Positions 103 to 10,748 of a DNA stretch of 10,910 nucleotides are shown here, in pieces (within the stretch, counting starts at the first letter, position 1; each line of letters starts with the position of its first letter). Below the pieces are notes generated by a model. It saw only the letters and a list, made by a program, of their open reading frames with translations. It did not search any database and was not told the DNA's origin. A program made the position numbers and the translations under genes. The DNA comes from Gemmatimonadota bacterium (lineage in GTDB: Bacteria > GCA-2686955): NCBI GenBank assembly GCA_002686955.1, contig NYZA01000142.1, forward strand, positions 1 to 10,910, read 5' to 3'.

Positions 103-1980
103 TTGCATGTTCTCTTCAATCCGGTCTTGGCGTCTCTCGCGACCGCGTCGCTCGATCTGGCTCCCTTCGAACCTCCCACCTTGGGCGTCCACCCCTCGTT
201 AGTGGTATCTCGTGAGGCCACGGAGCTGCGCTTCGAGTTCGAGGCTCATACGCCCTTGCGCGCCGGCGCGGAACTACATGCACAGCTTCCGATCTCGATC
301 CAGGGAGAGAATCTCGACGATATGTGGGAGGCGGCACAGACTGCCGACTCCCTCGGAGGAGGCTACGTGTGGGTCGACGCACCGGCGCATATCGCGGCAC
401 ATGGCGTGACCGACAGCGGATGGCTGGTTGGAGTGACAATTGCAGAAGGCACGCTCAGGCGAGGCGAAACGCTGACTGTCCACTACAGGGGGCGCGCTCA
501 GGCTGCCGCCATGCCCCTGCGATTCCGAGGGCGCCTGCGCAGGGTGGGGAGCCGGCAATGGTTCACCTTCGAAGCGAGCTCCGAGACCCGGGTGGTCGGC
601 GCGGGCGCCGCATTCGCGCAGGTGGTCACGCCGGCCGATGTGGTGCTCGGCGAGCCCTTCGCTTTGATTATCGCGGTCATGGATCCCTTCGGAAACCCGG
701 CGTGGGGCTACCGCGATGCCGTGACGGTCGACATCGCCGGTATCGGGGAATTCACGCATCTCTTCTGCGCCGCGGACTCGGCGCGGGCACAGATCGAGGG
801 GTTGGTTGCCGGCGAGCCCGGATTGTTGCGGCCTGTCGCCAGGGCACCTGGGCTCCCGGTACGAACCGCTCCCCTCCTTGCGCATGAATCGCCCCCTCTT
901 AGGCGCCGTTTTTTCGGCGACACGCATTTTCATACCGGGCGCGGGGCAGGTTATCAGGGGTGGGTTCGTCCCGGCTCCTGGGTTTCGGGGGGCGATCACC
1001 GTGGCAACTACTCACGGCAGCCTTTGGCCTATGCCTACGCCCGCGACATGGCCGGGCTCGACTGGGCGTCCGCATCGGAGCACGATGTGACCGAGTTCGA
1101 CGGGGGGTTCAGCGAAGCCGATTGGGAGGCGAGCCAAGACCTCGCGGATGAGCTGTACGAGCCCGGCGTGTTTACGACCTTTTACGCCTGGGAATGGACG
1201 CACTGGGAAGAAGGGCATCGTGTCGTGTACTACAGAGACCGTGGCGGAGCGGTCTTCCATCGCCCGGAGTTCACAACCGTGACGGCTCTCTACGAGGCGC
1301 TCGAAACCCTGTCGATCCCGAGTCTGGTCATTCCGCACGTGATGAACGCCGAGGCGGACAACCGGATCTGGAGCGTGCCGCATCAGGGTTTGCAGCGTGT
1401 CGGTGAGCTCTACTCGCACCACAATGACGACGACGGGCCTGAGATCGCTGATCTCTTCGAGCTGGGCGTCGACGATTCGTGGTCGTATCGATATGCCTGG
1501 TCGCTCGGGCACCGCATCGGAGTGATCGGATCGAGCGACGACCATTTCGGCATGCCGGGCCGCGATGGATTCGCGCCCGATTCCGAGGGCTCGGGCGGTC
1601 TGGCGGTGGCATTGGCCACCGAGAACACACGAGAGGCGATCTGGGAAGCCCTCGACGCCAGACGCGTCTACGCGACGACGGGCGCCAGGATCTTGCTCGA
1701 CCTGCGGGTCAACCGTGAGCCGATGGGCTCCGCCATCGTCCGCGGCCCCGCACCGGCCGAGATTCGGGTCGCAGTGGCGGGCACCGCTCCCCTGGATCGC
1801 GTCGAGATCGTGCGAGGACACGAGGGGCGATACGAAACGCTCAACCTACCGGCCCAAGGGCGCATCGATCTCGAGCATCGGGTCGTAGACCACTCACTCA
1901 CCAGCCCCGCGCTCTACTACCTGCGCGTGCTTCAATCGGACGGCGAAATGGCCTGGAGCAGTCCGGTCTGGGTGCAATAG
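103..1980 (+). CDS. DUF3604 domain protein (PHP-like metal-dependent hydrolase fold)
   Basis: A 625-residue protein of the DUF3604 family, whose members look like metal-dependent PHP/amidohydrolase-type enzymes with no assigned reaction. Residues 1 to about 265 form a beta-rich N-terminal part. The family core follows: GDTHFHT (272-278) with His275 and His277, SEHD (325-328), FYAWEWT (360-366), PHVM (411-414) and GSSDDHFGMPG (476-486) with Asp480/His481. These are the expected metal ligands. RVYATTGARI (521-530) is another family hallmark, followed by a C-terminal beta region. The start is TTG at 103, the first possible start after the in-frame stop at 64-66. A GGGAG stretch at 89-93 lies about 9 bp upstream and supports it. 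The N-terminus is not a convincing signal peptide. The neighbouring genes do not suggest a substrate. Confidence 0.9.
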   Translation: MHVLFNPVLASLATASLDLAPFEPPTLGVHPSLVVSREATELRFEFEAHTPLRAGAELHAQLPISIQGENLDDMWEAAQTADSLGGGYVWVDAPAHIAAHGVTDSGWLVGVTIAEGTLRRGETLTVHYRGRAQAAAMPLRFRGRLRRVGSRQWFTFEASSETRVVGAGAAFAQVVTPADVVLGEPFALIIAVMDPFGNPAWGYRDAVTVDIAGIGEFTHLFCAADSARAQIEGLVAGEPGLLRPVARAPGLPVRTAPLLAHESPPLRRRFFGDTHFHTGRGAGYQGWVRPGSWVSGGDHRGNYSRQPLAYAYARDMAGLDWASASEHDVTEFDGGFSEADWEASQDLADELYEPGVFTTFYAWEWTHWEEGHRVVYYRDRGGAVFHRPEFTTVTALYEALETLSIPSLVIPHVMNAEADNRIWSVPHQGLQRVGELYSHHNDDDGPEIADLFELGVDDSWSYRYAWSLGHRIGVIGSSDDHFGMPGRDGFAPDSEGSGGLAVALATENTREAIWEALDARRVYATTGARILLDLRVNREPMGSAIVRGPAPAEIRVAVAGTAPLDRVEIVRGHEGRYETLNLPAQGRIDLEHRVVDHSLTSPALYYLRVLQSDGEMAWSSPVWVQ

Positions 1981-1998: not shown

Positions 1999-2445
1999 CT
2001 ACGAAGGCGAAATATCGACGCCCGCAAGCCCATTCCGGAATCGCGCCAACTCGGCTGCAAAGGGTCCGGTGATCTGCCCGAACATCTCCGCCACCTGCTC
2101 CGGTAGGTAATCGTGAACGATTCGGTTGCGCACATCGCGCATATCGAGCCAAAGCGATGTCGCCGATATCAGACCGAGCTTCTCCATTCGATGCAAGCGA
2201 TCCCGAAGTGTGTCCGAGGCAACAGCTTCATGGAGCATCTCGTAGGTTCTGAAGAAACGGAGGGCGATCTCGACGATGCGCACAAAGCGATCGGCCAGGG
2301 CGTCGTAGGGCTCCAGCTCGTCTGGAGTGTAGCTACGAGAGGGATCGTAGCGCTGAACGCGCCGCAATGACGCCTCGACGAGCGTCAGGCCCGCCTCACA
2401 CTTCTTCTTGCCGTTGGCCGCCAACGGAATCAACTCGCGATTCAT
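1999..2445 (-). CDS. hepT: HepT-like HEPN toxin (ribonuclease) of a HepT/MntA pair
   Basis: A 148-residue all-helical protein with the HEPN motif R-x4-H-x-Y at Arg106, His111 and Tyr113 (RNRIVHDY). In the HepT family this motif is the RNA-cleaving site, and its tyrosine is the residue AMPylated by the partner nucleotidyltransferase. The length is typical of the longer HepT-like subgroup. The ATG at 2445-2443 overlaps the TGA of the upstream mntA-like gene at 2444-2442 (ATGA). The two are therefore almost certainly translationally coupled, with antitoxin first. The 3' end faces the end of the DUF3604 gene with an 18-bp gap and no clear terminator. The role as a toxin rests on family knowledge and on the partner gene. 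The RNA target cannot be read from sequence. Confidence 0.87.
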   Translation of the reverse strand: MNRELIPLAANGKKKCEAGLTLVEASLRRVQRYDPSRSYTPDELEPYDALADRFVRIVEIALRFFRTYEMLHEAVASDTLRDRLHRMEKLGLISATSLWLDMRDVRNRIVHDYLPEQVAEMFGQITGPFAAELARFRNGLAGVDISPS

Positions 2446-2723
2446 CGAAAGCGCTCCAAAGTCAGCGACGCCAGAAACGCAGCCTGCTCGGCACTCAGAT
2501 TGTCGGGGTCGAGCACGACGACATCTAGCTTCTGCTCGCAGAGTAGGAAGAACTCCCGCCCGATTCGTTGGGCAAGCTCCAGAGGGGGCTCTTTCGAATA
2601 GACCAAAATGTCGATGTCGCCGCCGCGGGCGGCAGGATCGGTACGCGATCCGAAGAGATGCACCTCGCTCAGGCCCCGCGTCGCCCTTCGCAATGCCCTG
2701 GCTTCTTGTTGATCGAGCCGCAT
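2442..2723 (-). CDS. mntA: MntA-like minimal nucleotidyltransferase antitoxin
   Basis: A 93-residue minimal nucleotidyltransferase. FGSRTDPAARGGDIDIL carries the GS-x9-DxD signature (Gly25, Ser26, Asp36, Asp38). Asp67 in KLDVVVLD fits the third catalytic carboxylate. Such proteins transfer AMP from ATP to the tyrosine of the partner HepT and so neutralise it. The frame stays open upstream to 2963, but that stretch lies inside the FKBP gene and is Arg/Ser/Trp-rich shadow sequence. The start at MRLDQQEARA (ATG 2723-2721) gives a family-sized protein. There is no good Shine-Dalgarno before this ATG, so expression may depend on a leaderless or read-through transcript from the FKBP gene 40 bp upstream. 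Confidence 0.87.
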   Translation of the reverse strand: MRLDQQEARALRRATRGLSEVHLFGSRTDPAARGGDIDILVYSKEPPLELAQRIGREFFLLCEQKLDVVVLDPDNLSAEQAAFLASLTLERFR

Positions 2724-2763: not shown

Positions 2764-3660
2764 TCAGCCCAACACCCTACCGGCCTCCAGCTCCTCGACG
2801 ACCGCGGCCTGCACGTCGACGACCGTAACCTCGAAATCGAGCTCCTTGCCCGCATAGGGATGATTCGCGTCCAGGCGGGCGGTGTCGTCGTCCAGCGAGA
2901 GGACCACGACCGGCGTGGGTCCCTTCGGCGAGCGCATCGCCATGACCATTCCCGGCTCGACATCGTCCGGCAGGTTCTGTCGCGGCACCTCGATCACCCG
3001 CTTCGGATCGCGCGGGCCGAAGCCGTCCTCGGGAGGGACCGCGACTCTGATGCGATCCCCCGTCGAAAGGCCGGCCAGCGCGCGCTCCAGCCCCGCGACG
3101 ATCTGGCCGCGGCCGTAGAGGAAGCGCATCGGCCCGCGCCCCTCGCTCACTTCGAGGGTCTCGCCGGTCGCCGGATCACGCAGCACATAATCGAGTGTCA
3201 CCACGCGATCGTCCCGAACGTCCGCGGGCCCCTCGATCGGAACGCGCTCGATCGGGGCGTGCCCGTGGTGATGGGGATCGGATTCGTCGCCGGAACAACC
3301 CGAGGAACAGGCATCGGCGGGGCCGAACTCCCGTAGCTCACCCGCGATGAACGCCTCGATCGCCTTCGCAACGGTCCCCATCTTCTCATGGGAAAAGACA
3401 CTCACGCCGGCCTCTTGAAAGCCGGCCAGAGGACGCCCGCCCATGCCCCCGGCCACCAGAGCCTCGACGCCCTGTTCGCGAAGGAAGCTCACGGGCGCCA
3501 TGCAGCCCCCCTTAGCGTGTCCCTCGTTCGGAATCACCGTGATCTCGCCGGTGCTCTCGCCCTCGACCTGAACCAGGGTGTAGGTTTCTGAATGTCCGAA
3601 GTGCTCGGAGATGGTGGCGTCGAGGCCGCCCGGGGCCTCGGTGGGGATGGCGACGAGCAT
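2764..3660 (-). CDS. NifX/NifB-like cofactor-binding domain fused to SlyD-type FKBP peptidyl-prolyl isomerase
   Basis: A 298-residue two-domain protein. Residues 1-112 look like the NifX/NifB C-terminal family that binds iron-molybdenum cofactor precursors; visible family features are SEHFGHSETYTLV, GHAKGGCMAP and EALVAGGMGGRPL. Residues 113-146 form a linker with ACSSGC and HHHGH, likely to bind metal. Residues 152-284 match SlyD: LDYVLRDPATGETLE, FLYGRGQIVAGLE, VPPEDGFGPRDP, an insert-in-flap region (about 226-270), then DANHPYAGKELDFEV. SlyD is a cytoplasmic prolyl isomerase and chaperone that binds metal through a His/Cys-rich C-terminal tail. Here that tail is missing and the Cys/His cluster lies between the domains. 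An AAGGA site at 3672-3668, 7 bp before ATG 3660, supports the start. The protein is read divergently from the molybdenum hydroxylase operon. A role in metal or cofactor delivery is inference. Domain calls are firm, function is not. Confidence 0.85.
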   Translation of the reverse strand: MLVAIPTEAPGGLDATISEHFGHSETYTLVQVEGESTGEITVIPNEGHAKGGCMAPVSFLREQGVEALVAGGMGGRPLAGFQEAGVSVFSHEKMGTVAKAIEAFIAGELREFGPADACSSGCSGDESDPHHHGHAPIERVPIEGPADVRDDRVVTLDYVLRDPATGETLEVSEGRGPMRFLYGRGQIVAGLERALAGLSTGDRIRVAVPPEDGFGPRDPKRVIEVPRQNLPDDVEPGMVMAMRSPKGPTPVVVLSLDDDTARLDANHPYAGKELDFEVTVVDVQAAVVEELEAGRVLG

Positions 3661-3778: not shown

Positions 3779-4168
3779 ATGTCCGATACCGGCAGACCCG
3801 ACGGCATCTCTCCACGAATCGTGGAGATCGAGTGGGGGCGCATTCGAATCGAAGAAGAAGAGGAGGACTTCAAGGACGCCAAGCTCTTCCCCGGCGGCTG
3901 TAGACGCTGGGATTGGAACGAGACCGCGACCCGGCACTCTCCGGGTGTTCAGCGCGCCGACGTCGAGGAATTGGTCGCGCACGGAGCAGGTGTCGTGGTC
4001 GTGGGCACCGGATATCGCGGACGATTGGGAATCAAACGCGAAACGATCGAGTTTCTGGAGCAGCGCGGAATCGATCTGCACGTGATGCAGACGGAGGCCG
4101 CGGTCGAGCGCTACAATGAACTTCGATGCGACGAATCGGTGGGTGGGTTGTTTCACACAACCTGCTGA
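3779..4168 (+). CDS. Mth938/DUF498 (AAMDC-type) domain protein
   Basis: A 129-residue protein of the Mth938 family (DUF498), related to the mitochondrial complex I assembly factor NDUFAF3. Family marks are clear: KLFPGGCRRWDWNETATRHS (35-54) followed by PGV, VVVVGTGYRGRLGI (72-85), AVERYNEL (108-115) and the C-terminal GLFHTTC. The acidic run EEEEED at 25-30 is unusual. Length is normal for the family. The ATG at 3779 has only a weak ribosome binding site. The stop at 4166-4168 is 10 bp before the start of the iron-sulfur subunit gene, so it is the first gene of the molybdenum hydroxylase operon. The family has no settled bacterial function. The NDUFAF3 parallel and operon position make an enzyme-assembly role reasonable but unproven. 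Confidence 0.88.
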   Translation: MSDTGRPDGISPRIVEIEWGRIRIEEEEEDFKDAKLFPGGCRRWDWNETATRHSPGVQRADVEELVAHGAGVVVVGTGYRGRLGIKRETIEFLEQRGIDLHVMQTEAAVERYNELRCDESVGGLFHTTC

Positions 4169-4178
4169 CGCGAAACAG

Positions 4179-4664
4179 ATGAAGCACCACGTCATTCGAA
4201 TCACTGTCAATGGGGACCGTCATACGCTGGCGGTGGCTCCACATTGGACGCTCGTGGAGGTGCTCAGAGAGCATCTGCGACTGACCGGCACGAAGCACGG
4301 TTGCGGGACGGGCGATTGCGGCGCGTGCACGGTCCTCCTGGACGGACGATCGGTCAACTCATGTCTGACCCTGGCCGTGGAGGTGGACGGGCGAGAGATC
4401 ACGACCATCGAAGGGATCGCCTCCTCGGGCGGGGAGCTTCACCCGGTTCAAGATGCCTTCATCGCCCACGGCGCCACCCAATGCGGCTTCTGCACGCCAG
4501 GCATGGTCGTATCGTCGGTACAGCTTCTGGCGACGAATTCGCGACCGGAGGAGCAGGAGATCCGCCACGCTCTCGGCGGCAATCTCTGTCGCTGCACCGG
4601 CTACACCAAGATCGTCGAAGCGATCGCCGCGGCGGCCACGCAGGGCGAGGAGGCCGAAGGATGA
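4179..4664 (+). CDS. Molybdenum hydroxylase small subunit, two [2Fe-2S] clusters
   Basis: A 161-residue iron-sulfur subunit of a xanthine dehydrogenase-family enzyme. It passes electrons between the molybdenum centre and FAD. The N-terminal plant-type cluster ligands are Cys42, Cys47, Cys50 (GCGTGDCGAC) and Cys62. The C-terminal cluster ligands are Cys102, Cys105 (QCGFCTPG), Cys137 and Cys139 (CRC). All eight are present. An in-frame ATG at 4116 would overlap the Mth938 gene by 53 bp and add 21 residues outside the family. ATG 4179 (MKHHVIRITVNG) gives the standard length, which equals that of HcrC of 4-hydroxybenzoyl-CoA reductase as I recall it. The stop overlaps the next start (ATGA at 4661-4664). 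The same organisation occurs for carbon monoxide dehydrogenase-like, isoquinoline and nicotinate enzymes, so no gene symbol is given. Confidence 0.95.
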   Translation: MKHHVIRITVNGDRHTLAVAPHWTLVEVLREHLRLTGTKHGCGTGDCGACTVLLDGRSVNSCLTLAVEVDGREITTIEGIASSGGELHPVQDAFIAHGATQCGFCTPGMVVSSVQLLATNSRPEEQEIRHALGGNLCRCTGYTKIVEAIAAAATQGEEAEG

Positions 4665-5527
4665 GACTCCCTCGCTTCGAATACCACGCCCCGGAACGGA
4701 TCGAGCAGGTCTTCGATCTGATGGAATCGCTCGGATCGGCGGCCGAACTGATGGCGGGTGGCACCGACCTGCTACCGGGGCTGAAGCTCGGTAAACGCAG
4801 CTGTGATCATATTGTGTCGCTCAGTCGCTTGAGCGAGCTCAAGGAGCTGAGCTTCAATGAGGCGAAAGGGCTCAGAATCGGCGCGGGCACGGTGCTCGCC
4901 GACGTTGCCGCACACGGCCCTGTTCGGGATCGCTACCGGATGCTGGCCAGCGCCATCGCCGATCTCGCCACGGTTCAGGTGCGTCACAGAGCAACGGTCG
5001 CGGGCAATCTCTGCAACGCTTCGCCATGCGCCGACACAGCGCCACCGCTGATGGCGATGGGAGCGATAATCGAGATCTCCAGCAGCGGCGGCAGGCGCGA
5101 TATCCCACTCGAGGAGCTGATGGTCGGTCCGGGTTCGATTGCTCTCGAAAAGGGAGAGATCGTCACCGCCATCATCGTGCCGACACCGAGACTCGAATCA
5201 CGCTCAACCTACATCAAATTCTCGCCCCGTTCGAAAGTCGATATCGCCGCGGTGAATGTCGCCGTCTCGACCACGACGACCCGTGGGCGCGTCGACGAGG
5301 TCGAGATATTCTTGGGAACCGTCGCACCAACGCCGATCCGCGCACGGCGGGCCGAAGTTCTGCTCAAAGGCTCCCATCTCAGTGAGTCCCTGCTCGCGAG
5401 CGCTGCCGCCGCCGCCCGTGACGAGTGTCTGCCGATCACCGATTTCAGAGCGACGGAAGAGTATAAGAGACATCTCGTAGAGGTCTTGACGAAGAGAGCG
5501 CTGATGACAACGACCGGGATCGCCTGA
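4661..5527 (+). CDS. Molybdenum hydroxylase FAD-binding (medium) subunit
   Basis: A 288-residue FAD subunit of the CoxM/HcrB/XdhB family. FAD-binding motifs are AGGTDLLPG (32-40) and TVAGNLCNASPCADTAPPL (112-130). The C-terminal CO-dehydrogenase flavoprotein domain covers roughly 180-285. The start ATG 4661 overlaps the previous stop by 4 bp and is preceded by GGCGAGGAGG, giving coupled translation. The frame is open back to 4244, but that part is the shadow of the iron-sulfur gene. Classical HcrB of 4-hydroxybenzoyl-CoA reductase carries an extra four-Cys [4Fe-4S] insertion of about 40 residues. No such insertion is seen here: there are only five cysteines (48, 118, 123, 256 and none clustered as a fourth ligand set), so it follows the shorter xanthine dehydrogenase/CODH pattern. 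Its stop overlaps the next start (TGATG). Confidence 0.95.
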   Translation: MRLPRFEYHAPERIEQVFDLMESLGSAAELMAGGTDLLPGLKLGKRSCDHIVSLSRLSELKELSFNEAKGLRIGAGTVLADVAAHGPVRDRYRMLASAIADLATVQVRHRATVAGNLCNASPCADTAPPLMAMGAIIEISSSGGRRDIPLEELMVGPGSIALEKGEIVTAIIVPTPRLESRSTYIKFSPRSKVDIAAVNVAVSTTTTRGRVDEVEIFLGTVAPTPIRARRAEVLLKGSHLSESLLASAAAAARDECLPITDFRATEEYKRHLVEVLTKRALMTTTGIA

Positions 5528-7794
5528 TGAGCCGCCAAACACTGATAGGAAAAAGCCTGCCGCGCCCCGACGCTAAGGCCAAGGTGACCGGTGGCGCCCA
5601 GTACACCGACGACATCCATCTTCCGGGCATGCTCCACGGAGCCTTGCTGCGGAGTCCGGTCGCCCACGCCAGAATCGCGAGCATCGATATCGATCGGGCA
5701 CGCGCCCTTCCCGGCGTCAAATGCGTGATTACGGGAAACGATGTACCCGCGGTTCGCTACGGCAACTGGCGTCTCGTGCCGGAGCTGCAAGACGAGACCG
5801 CGTTGGCCGTGGACAAGGTGCGCTTCATCGGCGACGAAGTAGCGGCAGTTGCCGCCGTCGATGCCGACACTGCGCGTGAAGCCCTCGAGCTGATCGATGT
5901 CGAGTACGAAGAGTTACCGGCCGTATTCGGCATCGAAGAAGCTCTGGCCGAGGGCGCACCGCATCTTCACGACGCACACACCGACAACATCAGTCTCACG
6001 CGAAATATCGACTACGGCGAGCTCGATCGGGCATTCGAGGAAGCGTTCCATATCCAAGAAGACGTATTCACGACCCATCCGGTCAACCACGCCTACATGG
6101 AGCCTTGCTCCGCCTTGGCTCGCGCTGAATCGGACGGCCGGATCACGATCTGGACATCGACGCAGACGCCCTACTACATCCAATGTCTGCTCGCCCGCAC
6201 GATGGAGCTGCGCGAGAACGACGTGCGGGTGATCAAGCCGCATGTGGGCGGCGGATTCGGCGGAAAGATGGAGCTGCGCCCTTGGGATTTCTGCGCCGCG
6301 TGGATGGCCCGCGAAATCGGGCGACCCGTGAAGTTCACGCTCGACCGCACGGAAGAGCTGGCGACCGGGCGCCGTCGCCATGCCGTGAAGATCAGCTCGA
6401 GGATCGCCTTCCAGGAAGATGGCACGATCACCGGCAAGGAGGTTCGCGCGTGGCTGAACGGCGGGGCGTACAACGGCATGGGGCCGACCGCGACCTTCCT
6501 GATCGGGAATTTCGGTGCGATGCTCTACCGTATTCCGGCGTACCGATACCGCGGACTCTACATCTATACGAATACCCCTCCAGCCGGAGCTATGCGCGGC
6601 TTCGGCGCCCCCCAGGCCCTCTACGCGGGGGAGACACAGATGAGCCAGGCCGCTGCCGCGCTCGGGCTCGATCCGATCGAGCTACGCCTGAAGAACTCCA
6701 TGACCGAGGGGGACGAGATCCCCGGTGTCGCGACGGTTGGCAGCTGCGGTCTGAAAGAGTGTCTCGAAGAGGTGCGAAGGATCAGCGGCTGGAACGAGAA
6801 GCGGGCCACCCTGGGCCGCGGCCATGGGATCGGTGTCGCCTGCTACAGTTTCATCTCGGGTGGCGTTTTCAACTGGTTCAACACGAAATACCCTTTCTCG
6901 AGCGCGGAGGTGCGGGTCTTCGACGACGGCACGGCCCAGCTCTCGACTCTGGCCGCCGACATCGGCCAAGGCTCCGATCTGATCCTGCCGCAGATCTTGG
7001 CCGAAGAGCTCGGCCTGAGAATGGACGACATCCGCCTGGTCACCGGCGACACCGCGGCCTGCCCTCAATCCGATCTCGGTACTTGGGGCAGCCGAGTCAC
7101 TCTCATGGCCGGCAACGCCGTGCGCCGGGCCGCCAAGGAGGTAAAAGAGCGGCTCTTCGAAATGGTGTCGCTGAAGTTCGATCTGAACGTCATTCACGAG
7201 CTGGAATGCGGTGACGGCCACATCTACGCAAAGAACAAGCCGAAACGCCGCATCCCCTTCGGTGAAGTCGTCGCCATGGCCCAACGCGCCAACCGTGGCG
7301 AGCCGATCAAAGCGACAGGGTACTACACGCCGCGAGATTGCGGGCTGGTGTCGCCGGCGTTCTCCTTCGGTGCGCAGGTCGCCGAAACGCGCGTCGATCT
7401 CGACACCGGCAAGGTCGAGGTGGAGCAGATGTACACGGTGCACGACTGCGGCGTCGAGCTCAACCCGATGGCGGTCGAAGGCCAGCTCGAGGGGTCGATT
7501 CAGATGAGCCTCGGCTACGCCCTATCGGAGACGCTCGTGATGCAGGAAGGCAGAACGCTCAATACCACTTTCCTCGATTATAAGATCCCCGTCGCGGCGG
7601 ATATGCCGCCGTCGATATCGAAGACCGTCGAGACCTTCGAGCCGGCGGGCCCCTTCGGCGCGAAAGAGGCCGGCGAAGGCCTGGCCTGCCCGACCGCTCC
7701 GGCGGTGGTCGACGCGGTATACGACGCCACCGGTTACTGCTGCAACGATTTGCCGATCACGCCGGAGAAGATCTTGGGGCATCTAGGAGCCTGA
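5527..7794 (+). CDS. Molybdenum hydroxylase large subunit (molybdopterin-binding, xanthine dehydrogenase family)
   Basis: A 755-residue catalytic subunit. It holds the Mo-pterin cytosine dinucleotide cofactor and hydroxylates or reductively dehydroxylates an organic substrate. Domains in order: ald_Xan_dh_C, about 20-130 (GGAQYTDDI, HGALLRSPVAHARI), then the MoCo-binding domain from about 150 to the end. Visible active-site features are GGGFGGK (241-247), MRGFG with Arg357, GQGSD (480-484) and GAKEAGEG (711-718), where Glu717 matches the catalytic base of xanthine oxidoreductase. Arg357 fits the conserved substrate-site arginine of xanthine dehydrogenases; CO dehydrogenase's Cys-containing loop is absent, so a CO dehydrogenase role is unlikely. 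Length is close to HcrA. The ATG overlaps the upstream stop by one base. No XdhC/CoxI-type maturation gene lies in the window. The substrate cannot be read; aromatic acyl-CoA, purine or N-heterocycle are all possible. Confidence 0.95.
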   Translation: MSRQTLIGKSLPRPDAKAKVTGGAQYTDDIHLPGMLHGALLRSPVAHARIASIDIDRARALPGVKCVITGNDVPAVRYGNWRLVPELQDETALAVDKVRFIGDEVAAVAAVDADTAREALELIDVEYEELPAVFGIEEALAEGAPHLHDAHTDNISLTRNIDYGELDRAFEEAFHIQEDVFTTHPVNHAYMEPCSALARAESDGRITIWTSTQTPYYIQCLLARTMELRENDVRVIKPHVGGGFGGKMELRPWDFCAAWMAREIGRPVKFTLDRTEELATGRRRHAVKISSRIAFQEDGTITGKEVRAWLNGGAYNGMGPTATFLIGNFGAMLYRIPAYRYRGLYIYTNTPPAGAMRGFGAPQALYAGETQMSQAAAALGLDPIELRLKNSMTEGDEIPGVATVGSCGLKECLEEVRRISGWNEKRATLGRGHGIGVACYSFISGGVFNWFNTKYPFSSAEVRVFDDGTAQLSTLAADIGQGSDLILPQILAEELGLRMDDIRLVTGDTAACPQSDLGTWGSRVTLMAGNAVRRAAKEVKERLFEMVSLKFDLNVIHELECGDGHIYAKNKPKRRIPFGEVVAMAQRANRGEPIKATGYYTPRDCGLVSPAFSFGAQVAETRVDLDTGKVEVEQMYTVHDCGVELNPMAVEGQLEGSIQMSLGYALSETLVMQEGRTLNTTFLDYKIPVAADMPPSISKTVETFEPAGPFGAKEAGEGLACPTAPAVVDAVYDATGYCCNDLPITPEKILGHLGA

Positions 7795-8518: not shown

Positions 8519-10660
8519 TCAATCCGCCAAACGGATCCCGGTCCAGGTTCCGGGACTGCCCGAATAGCTGAGCATCTCGCCGCTCATCGACTGGCCGTCC
8601 TCCTCCATCGTGCCCCAATAGTGGGTACCGCTCGTATACCACCAGTCCACGTCGCAGCCATCCTGCACCCAGGTACCGGTGTAACCTTCGGAATCGTCCC
8701 AGGTGCCGTCGGAGTAGAACCACTTGGTCACGACGCCCGACCAAATGTATGTGACGTCCCAGGTTCCCGTGAGATCGGGACAGGCTCCCGGAGTGGAGAC
8801 GGTGACGGGGAAGGAGTCGTCATCGATGAGAAGGCCGTCGCGGTAGAGCTCGGCCGTGACTGTGTAGGCGCCTTCCGGGGCGTTCACGGGCACGTCCAGC
8901 GAGACGGTGGTGCCGACGGAGTTCCCGGCCGTGACGATGACATCCGGCCCCGAGTAGAGCGTTTGCGTTAGATTCGCGGGCCCCTGAATCACCATCAATG
9001 CTTCGTCGAAGTGGAGATCGCCCGGGCATCCGTTGTCGGCCGCGGCATCGAAGTTCGTCGTCGCTCCCGGCGCGACCTGAGAGGGGTAGTTGCTCAGCGC
9101 GACCGTGAGATCGCAAGGATCTCCGTTCGAGGCCGCCAACACGGCTTCGTGCAAGTTGATCCGCCCCCAGCCCATGTAGCGGTCCCAGCCGGGTGTGTCC
9201 TCACCCGGGATTCCGACCTGGTCATCGGCGGTCGATTCCAGGATCGACTGCGCTTCGGTCGCACTCAGGGTGGGATCGGCGGACCAGATCAGCGCCAGAG
9301 AGCCCGCCGCGTGCGGACAAGCGGCCGAGGTACCGTTGAAGCCGGTGGTGTAGCCGCCGCCGGGAGAGGTCGTGAGCACGTCGACGCCGGGAGCGGCGAT
9401 GTCCATTTCGTTGCCGTAGTTGGAGCCCCACCAGTACTCGCCGTCACAGGAGCTTGGGTTCTTGCGCTCGTCGCACTGGCTCGTGGCCCCTACGCAGACG
9501 GTCGTACTGTACTTCGCGGGATAATTGACGGCACCGTTGTCGTTGCCGCTCGAGAAGCAAAGCAGAATGCCGTTGTCGCGCGCGTTCTGGCATGCGGCTT
9601 CGACGGCGCTGAAATCACCACTCGACATGCGCCAGGAGCAAGAGATCACGATCTGAGAGAAATCGCTCCCGCGGGTCACAACATAGTTGATGGCGTCGGC
9701 CCGATTCTGGTTCGCGCCGCTCGACAGGCTGACCTTGAGCGGCATGAGACGACAATCGGGAGCGACACCGGCCATTCCGGTGGAGTTGTTCGTCGCCGCG
9801 CCCGCGATGCCATTGGTCGCCGTTCCATGACTGCCCGAATCATGCGGAATCTTGTTGGGACCGTTCGAGAAGTCCCAATCCTCGCTGCCGATCGGAACCA
9901 CCTTCGATGCGAGATCCGGGTGGTCCCAGTCTATGCCGGTATCGATCACCGAGATGATCACATCGGAATCGCCCATCTCGACGTCCCAGGCGTCCTCGGC
10001 GTTGATATCGGCGCCGATAGTGCCGCCCGACTGGCCGGTGTTGTTGAGCGGCCACTGCTCGTCGTAGCGACTGTCGTTCGGAACGAAAAGTGCGTCTTCG
10101 AAGCTGAACGATGCGAGCTCGGCGAACCAGACATCTTCGTGCGCGTTGAAGTCCCGGATCGACTGGAAGAGACTGCGATCTTCCGGAGCGAAAAGAGTGT
10201 AGTAACCGGGCGTTCGCTGCTCGCGGGCAACGGAGGCCCCAAGGGCACCGATCACCTCGAGACGGCGCGCTTCGTCCACGCCGGCTTTGAACTGCACGGT
10301 GAGCTGATCCGGGGCGAATGTCTTGAGGAAGCCTTCCTGATCGCGCAGCAACGGCATCGCCGCCGCCACTCCAGGCATGGCGCGGAGCCGGGTCAGCATC
10401 CGGTCGGTGTCGGCATCGACGTCGAGCAGGAGATAGGGAGCCGCCCAGGCGGCTTCACGCTCGATCGCCGCGCCGGCGCCGGTCAAGCTCGCCCGGGCCG
10501 ATTCGGCGCCGGCTCCGGAGCGCAGGGAGACCTGCATCTTTCCGGAAACCTCGGTCATGGTGAACTGCTTGCCGTTGAATCCGGAAACATAGTGGTAGTC
10601 CCCTTCCGCGAAAGCCGCCGCGGCTGTGAGGGGGATCAGGGCGAGTGCGAGAGTTCTCAT
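8519..10660 (-). CDS. Secreted subtilisin-like serine protease (S8) with propeptide and C-terminal beta domains
   Basis: A 713-residue secreted S8 protease. Residues 1-18 form a Sec signal peptide (MRTLALALIPLTAAAAFA). About 20-195 is a propeptide resembling fervidolysin-type N-terminal domains (TVQFKAGVDEARRLEVIGAL). The catalytic domain begins near YDEQWPLNNTGQ (199-210). The triad is Asp240 (VIDTGIDWDHPDL), His279 (SHGTATNGIAGA) and Ser445 (FNGTSAACPHAAGS), with oxyanion Asn373 (SSGNDNG). Several cysteine pairs fit disulfides outside the cytoplasm. Residues 516-622 form an Ig-like beta domain. Residues 627-713 form a separate Trp/Gly-rich beta domain beginning CPDLTGTWDVTY and ending TWTGIRLAD. 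The frame opens at ATG 10747, which would add 29 residues before the signal peptide. ATG 10660 is chosen because it starts the signal peptide and has GGAGAT upstream. It probably digests extracellular protein; its specificity is unknown. Confidence 0.93.
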   Translation of the reverse strand: MRTLALALIPLTAAAAFAEGDYHYVSGFNGKQFTMTEVSGKMQVSLRSGAGAESARASLTGAGAAIEREAAWAAPYLLLDVDADTDRMLTRLRAMPGVAAAMPLLRDQEGFLKTFAPDQLTVQFKAGVDEARRLEVIGALGASVAREQRTPGYYTLFAPEDRSLFQSIRDFNAHEDVWFAELASFSFEDALFVPNDSRYDEQWPLNNTGQSGGTIGADINAEDAWDVEMGDSDVIISVIDTGIDWDHPDLASKVVPIGSEDWDFSNGPNKIPHDSGSHGTATNGIAGAATNNSTGMAGVAPDCRLMPLKVSLSSGANQNRADAINYVVTRGSDFSQIVISCSWRMSSGDFSAVEAACQNARDNGILLCFSSGNDNGAVNYPAKYSTTVCVGATSQCDERKNPSSCDGEYWWGSNYGNEMDIAAPGVDVLTTSPGGGYTTGFNGTSAACPHAAGSLALIWSADPTLSATEAQSILESTADDQVGIPGEDTPGWDRYMGWGRINLHEAVLAASNGDPCDLTVALSNYPSQVAPGATTNFDAAADNGCPGDLHFDEALMVIQGPANLTQTLYSGPDVIVTAGNSVGTTVSLDVPVNAPEGAYTVTAELYRDGLLIDDDSFPVTVSTPGACPDLTGTWDVTYIWSGVVTKWFYSDGTWDDSEGYTGTWVQDGCDVDWWYTSGTHYWGTMEEDGQSMSGEMLSYSGSPGTWTGIRLAD

Positions 10661-10663
10661 TAG

Positions 10664-10669
10664 ATCTCC
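10664..10669 (-). promoter_or_regulatory. Ribosome binding site GGAGAT deciding the protease start
   Basis: On the minus strand GGAGAT lies 3 bp (4-7 bp from the core GGAG) before ATG 10660. This favours 10660 over the in-frame ATG at 10747, which has no signal peptide directly after it. Confidence 0.65.
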
Positions 10670-10748
10670 GAAGTATTGTGCGGGCGCCTCTCTCGGCGTG
10701 GCCGCGATGCTCTGGTCGACGGGACGTAGCTCAATCCTAACCCCCATT

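Follow-up and report, generated by a model that had tools for sequence, protein, structure and literature searches.

Background

Several proteins carrying the Nitro_FeMo-Co domain (also designated NifX/NifB/NafY/ORP-type, and NifX-type below) are known to bind metal-sulphur species: MrpORP binds a [3Fe-4S] cluster and Orp8 a Mo-Cu-S cluster (PMC6345978), and IssA, a member of the NifX family, binds thioferrate (PMC5524996). In MrpORP the domain is joined to a partner in cofactor biogenesis, an Mrp/NBP35 NTPase (PMC6345978). Other proteins of the family, such as MTH1175, TM1816, Orp8 and IssA, are standalone, with no foldase fused to them.

SlyD, a metallochaperone prolyl isomerase of Escherichia coli, Thermus thermophilus and Helicobacter pylori, is known in the biogenesis of Fe-S and nickel enzymes, and in E. 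coli its isomerase activity is lowered by metal binding. In E. coli and H. pylori, SlyD has been described to interact with IscU, IscS, SufS and MisSU and to affect Fe-S enzymes (PMC10653786). No paper joining the NifX-type and SlyD families in one protein was found in the open literature, in agreement with the initial annotation of the locus studied here, which could name no protein with this combination of domains that had been characterised; uncharacterised members are present in public genomes. The parts are known, and so are fusions of the N-terminal domain to other partners (MrpORP), but the NifX-type/SlyD join itself appears to be undescribed. A natural fusion of this kind bears on how protein folding is coupled to metal delivery.

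An intact gene joining two domains

The window, that is, the whole stretch of 10,910 nucleotides that was analysed, carries on its minus strand, at positions 2764-3660, a gene for a 298-residue protein in which a NifX-type domain is followed by a SlyD part. The frame runs from 3660 to 2764 with 298 codons, no internal stop and a terminal stop codon, and AAGGA is found 7 nt 5' of its ATG. Both domain profiles match above their cut-offs and sequences of solved structures match each half, so that the initial description of two usually separate domains in one intact frame holds. The contig that makes up the window is short (10.9 kb) and belongs to a draft assembly with an estimated completeness of 84.5%, which could raise the suspicion that two genes had been joined by a frameshift or by misassembly. 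However, an independent genome from another phylum (G1337; contig C45, 2499-3437, locus L175) encodes a 312-residue protein in which both domains recur; it shows 47% identity to the window protein from end to end and has the same junction. A frameshift or chimeric contig is therefore excluded, the chance of an artefact being negligible, and the fusion is real.

The N-terminal domain (about residues 14-105; positions 3346-3621, minus strand) matches PF02579 (IPR003731) at residues 14-105 with an E-value of 5.7e-19 and 68.7 bits, the cut-off being 26.3. In a search of the whole genome for the same profile, the fusion protein (E 2.6e-19) was the only Nitro_FeMo-Co protein found. Alignments with relatives show the conserved motifs HFGH (20-23) and GGCMAPV (51-57), and sequence searches of the PDB rendered 1o13 and 1t3v (annotated as 'probable NifB' or conserved hypothetical proteins; E about 4e-13), as well as resemblance to the solved NifX-type proteins 2yx6 and 1rdu. 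The NifX and NifB equivalog models of nitrogenase proper gave no NCBIfam match for this half at an E-value of 1e-3. Its sole, partial NCBIfam match was to the C-terminus of MrpORP (NF041136, positions 267-365, E 5.4e-13), with 49 bits against a cut-off of 450, and the NTPase domain of MrpORP is absent from the fusion protein according to Pfam and NCBIfam. MrpORP and the window protein are alike in having a Nitro_FeMo-Co domain joined to a partner, but MrpORP pairs a C-terminal domain of this kind with an ATPase, and the window protein an N-terminal one with a foldase; moreover, the Cys of the CxHFGHC motif of MrpORP are missing from the window protein. Only three Cys are present in the whole protein (53, 118 and 122), and these, together with His residues, are the candidate metal ligands.

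The SlyD part (about residues 147-298; positions 2764-3222, minus strand) comprises an FKBP domain with the chaperone domain inserted in its flap. PF00254 matches residues 147-222 (E 9.5e-10, 39.1 bits against a cut-off of 21.1), and a comparison with PDB sequences rendered T. thermophilus SlyD (TtSlyD) as a full-length match that takes in the chaperone insert, with an E-value of 1.5e-23 and 41% identity at residues 148-298. The predicted structure, built on an alignment of SlyD rows only, so that its confidence figures apply to this half, has pLDDT values mostly above 90 and matches TtSlyD (4odm) in Foldseek with a TMt of 0.88. The NCBIfam equivalog for SlyD of the E. coli type (PRK10737) gave 82.9 bits, below its cut-off of 174. 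In the alignment with TtSlyD, pocket residues Y13, D23, I37, L40, Y63 and F128 correspond to Y158, E170, V188, L191, F214 and F276, and H119 to H267; the FKBP pocket is thus mostly intact, with Y158, L191, F276 and H267 kept. The Y63F variant of TtSlyD retains 76% of its activity (PMC5034536). The SlyD half is expected from these residues to be an active, perhaps slower, prolyl isomerase. Two other FKBP_C matches in the same genome correspond to a contig-edge fragment and to a 456-residue frame that may be trigger factor.

The Cys/His cluster of the linker

The linker (positions 3229-3315, minus strand) contains C118, C122, H130-132 and H134, as first noted (ACSSGC...HHHGH), followed by the junction HAPIERVPIEG. 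It had been proposed that this is the cluster that SlyD normally carries at its C-terminus, relocated to a position between the domains. The alignments do not bear this out. The window linker (ADACSSGCSGDESDPHHHGH) aligns onto the C-terminal tails of standalone NifX-type relatives, and the nearest relatives of the N-terminal domain, all standalone, have the C-terminal ends AQVCGGHGEGTCGQH, AQVCGGGGNCGHH and AQTCQGHSDQGDGCGSN. Among the loci fetched, 35 of the 70 open reading frames with the NifX-type domain and without an FKBP domain have at least two Cys and at least three His after the domain. Since standalone Nitro_FeMo-Co proteins carry a C...C/His tail at the aligned position, the cluster is, judged by homology of position, the NifX-type domain's own C-terminal tail, and a displaced SlyD tail is ruled out.

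At the far end of the protein, the His/Cys tail found in many, but not all, SlyD proteins is absent. Near SlyD relatives end in EELxHGHxHG...HHH (for instance HGHVHG..GGHHH), and the window protein ends in EELEAGRVLG, with AGRVLG at the aligned position; the SlyD half has lost its usual His tail. The window protein differs from described SlyD proteins in this loss and in having the NifX-type domain and linker instead. The linker of the G1337 protein is longer and very rich in His (CGGGGGGCGGHGHDHGHEHGHEQGHDHGHHHH), and the junction HHxHAPxERxPIEGxxDVRxxR is common to both proteins. A Nitro_FeMo-Co domain was also observed in open frames of 244-293 residues with a His/Cys-rich end (L037, L067-L071, L102, L105 and L107). 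L037 and its kin were considered as further SlyD fusions and rejected, as the N-terminal domain matches in frames of about 250-290 residues that have no FKBP half. By eye, L037 seems to have a helix-turn-helix of the DUF134 type in its upstream part, possibly another fusion of the Nitro_FeMo-Co domain.

Distribution and origins of the fusion

The survey covered about 1,340 genomes, and all counts of fusions are lower bounds. The fusion is rare, being present in at least five of these genomes (the window genome, G1337, G547, G766 and G802), and it is not unique to the window. Among the candidates scored, 386 genomes drawn broadly, with at most a few from each phylum, rendered only the window's own fusion, and 345 genomes from the phylum of G024 rendered none; the closest N-terminal domains found, with up to 52% identity, are in this latter sample. 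At least three fusions (G547, G766 and G802) were found among 398 genomes of G053's phylum, which we take to be Bacillota because G053 bears Spo0A, and that of G1337 in 195 genomes from the phylum of G029. The window's own phylum is represented by two genomes, and the sister genome, which is about 83% complete, had no match to the fusion protein. Viral contigs rendered no fusion, and one long match (L025) was discarded as two tandem FKBP genes.

The same architecture is found in Lachnospira eligens (Bacillota), in two plasmid records. The L. eligens protein (WP_012740742.1, 304 residues) is annotated as 'FKBP-type peptidyl-prolyl cis-trans isomerase' only, and on at least some such proteins this label hides the metal half. 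It shares the domain order and a Cys/His-rich linker with the window protein, but overall identity is about 34% and both halves lie apart in the trees, which indicates a probably independent fusion. A fusion gene is also found on a contig from human faeces (MT836829.1, 1-7146) that was deposited as 'Bacteriophage sp.'; this contig carries FtsE/FtsX-like, CtpA-like and peptidase-like genes besides, and looks like bacterial chromosome rather than phage.

Trees of both halves, which are based on short alignments with some long branches, reject a single clade of the window and Bacillota fusions (p-AU 0.00067 for the N-terminal half and 0.0013 for the C-terminal half), and the rejection is stronger when G1337 is added to the N-terminal tree (p 7.5e-6, AU test). 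One common origin of all the fusions is thus rejected by both halves. In the C-terminal tree the window and G1337 proteins come out as sisters, with an unstarred support of 91/95, and the N-terminal tree does not reject grouping them together (p 0.097). Because both trees reject a single origin of the window and Bacillota fusions, the join was probably made on two or more occasions, and a Cys/His-rich linker accompanied each; on the trees, at least two origins are well supported, if not beyond doubt. The surprise is this probable convergence on the same domain order and the same kind of linker.

Genomic context

The fusion gene lies head-to-head with a divergent gene for a DUF498/Mth938-like protein (3779-4168, plus strand; PF04430, E 1.9e-17), with 118 bp between them, and any association of the two is putative. 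The latter gene runs at its 3' end into the reading frame that follows, and precedes an operon for a three-subunit molybdenum hydroxylase (4116-7794, plus strand; Pfam and NCBIfam) with 2x[2Fe-2S], FAD and Mo subunits, whose best matches are the 4-hydroxybenzoyl-CoA reductase alpha subunit and XdhABC, all below the curated NCBIfam equivalog cut-offs. A NiFe-hydrogenase-like gene is located on another contig of the genome (C80), next to a frame that, by eye, we take to be HypF-like. The hydroxylase and the NiFe-hydrogenase-like protein are candidate clients.

No conserved gene neighbourhood was found among the fusions of L. eligens, G547, G766, G802 and G1337. In G1337 the fusion gene lies beside genes for a Nudix regulator and a LepA-like protein, and in L. 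eligens beside small ORFs and LysR/NhaC. In G547 it is preceded at about 113 bp, on the same strand, by a gene for a CobW/HypB/UreG-type GTPase with DUF1980_C (L126:5662-6597).

Possible functions of the fusion protein

The initial annotation had suggested one protein that binds a metal or metal cluster and helps a client fold. Its domain calls and the intact fusion stand, its account of the cluster as the relocated tail of SlyD does not, and the suggested activity is plausible. We favour a cofactor carrier joined to a foldase, since relatives of the N-terminal domain bind metal-sulphur species and SlyD interacts with Fe-S biogenesis proteins. The NifX-type domain and its flexible Cys/His tail would hold a metal ion or a small metal-sulphur cluster; the chaperone insert of SlyD would capture an unfolded or apo metalloprotein, whose prolines would be isomerised at the FKBP site; and the tether would allow the cofactor to be handed to the client during folding. 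We give about even chances to such a one-chain metallochaperone and foldase maturing metalloproteins, the inferred parts being the binding and identity of the metal, the client and the transfer. The presence of the two domains, an FKBP pocket that is largely kept and a linker cluster homologous to standalone tails are consistent with it, as are the repeated join in distant lineages, probably of separate origin and with a Cys/His-rich linker each time, and the GTPase gene just upstream in G547. By analogy, the metal-sulphur species bound by MrpORP, Orp8 and IssA and the ties of SlyD to IscU, IscS, SufS and MisSU point in the same direction. On the other hand, three Cys would be too few for a [4Fe-4S] cluster except with dimerisation or other ligands, the CxHFGHC Cys of MrpORP are missing, and the fusion is rare and shares no gene neighbourhood among the cases examined.

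The same parts could instead make a metal-gated foldase, in which the NifX-type domain and linker would sense or sequester metal and switch the SlyD isomerase on and off, with no cofactor handed over. The linker may be able to bind metal whether or not a client is present, no conserved client gene lies near the fusions of L. eligens, G547, G766, G802 and G1337, and metal lowers the isomerase activity of E. coli SlyD. Characterised relatives such as MrpORP, however, hold clusters and transfer them via the NTPase domain (PMC6345978), and we consider gating unlikely, even if nothing in the sequences separates it from the metallochaperone. That two ordinary proteins are merely tethered, each keeping its separate job with no new function, would agree with the rarity of the fusion and with the closest relatives of each half being mostly separate genes; in G744 (Bacillota), for instance, a SlyD of 69% identity and a NifX-type protein are encoded by separate genes on different contigs. 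The probably separate origins with the same domain order and a Cys/His-rich linker each time, and the conservation of the junction between two phyla (window and G1337), make this rather improbable. A dedicated maturation factor for the divergent hydroxylase, delivering Mo or Fe-S during folding, is suggested by the head-to-head layout, by the requirement of that enzyme for Mo and two [2Fe-2S] clusters, and by the Mo-Cu-S binding of a family member (PMC6345978). Yet the fusion genes of G1337, L. eligens, G547, G766 and G802 showed no such neighbour, and the NiFe-hydrogenase-like gene provides another possible SlyD client, so that so narrow a role is very unlikely.

The two or more apparent origins in distant bacteria suggest that both parts cooperate in building metal-containing enzymes, and a natural fusion of probably repeated origin points towards the SlyD and NifX-type families being direct partners, which is open to testing with the separate proteins in laboratory organisms. 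More tentatively, and with somewhat less than an even chance, the fusions may form a recurrent, undescribed class of cofactor-loading foldases, in which the repeated joining of a NifX-type carrier to SlyD would place cofactor insertion and proline isomerisation on one machine. In G089 (L129:4240-10289), a standalone SlyD-like FKBP gene is followed, about 3 kb downstream on the same strand, by two NifX-type genes and two genes for MinD/Mrp-type ATPases.

Other features of the window

Rfam rendered no match in the window. Directly downstream of the fusion gene, at 40 bp, lies an MntA/HepT-like toxin-antitoxin pair (1999-2723, minus strand), consisting of a nucleotidyltransferase with a GSx9DxD-like motif and a HepT-like protein with RNRIVHDY, below the NCBIfam equivalog cut-offs. 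The remaining genes observed are a DUF3604/CehA-McbA-like metallohydrolase (103-1980, plus strand; Pfam and NCBIfam) and a large subtilase (S8) that is extended far beyond its protease domain at the C-terminus (8519-10747, minus strand).
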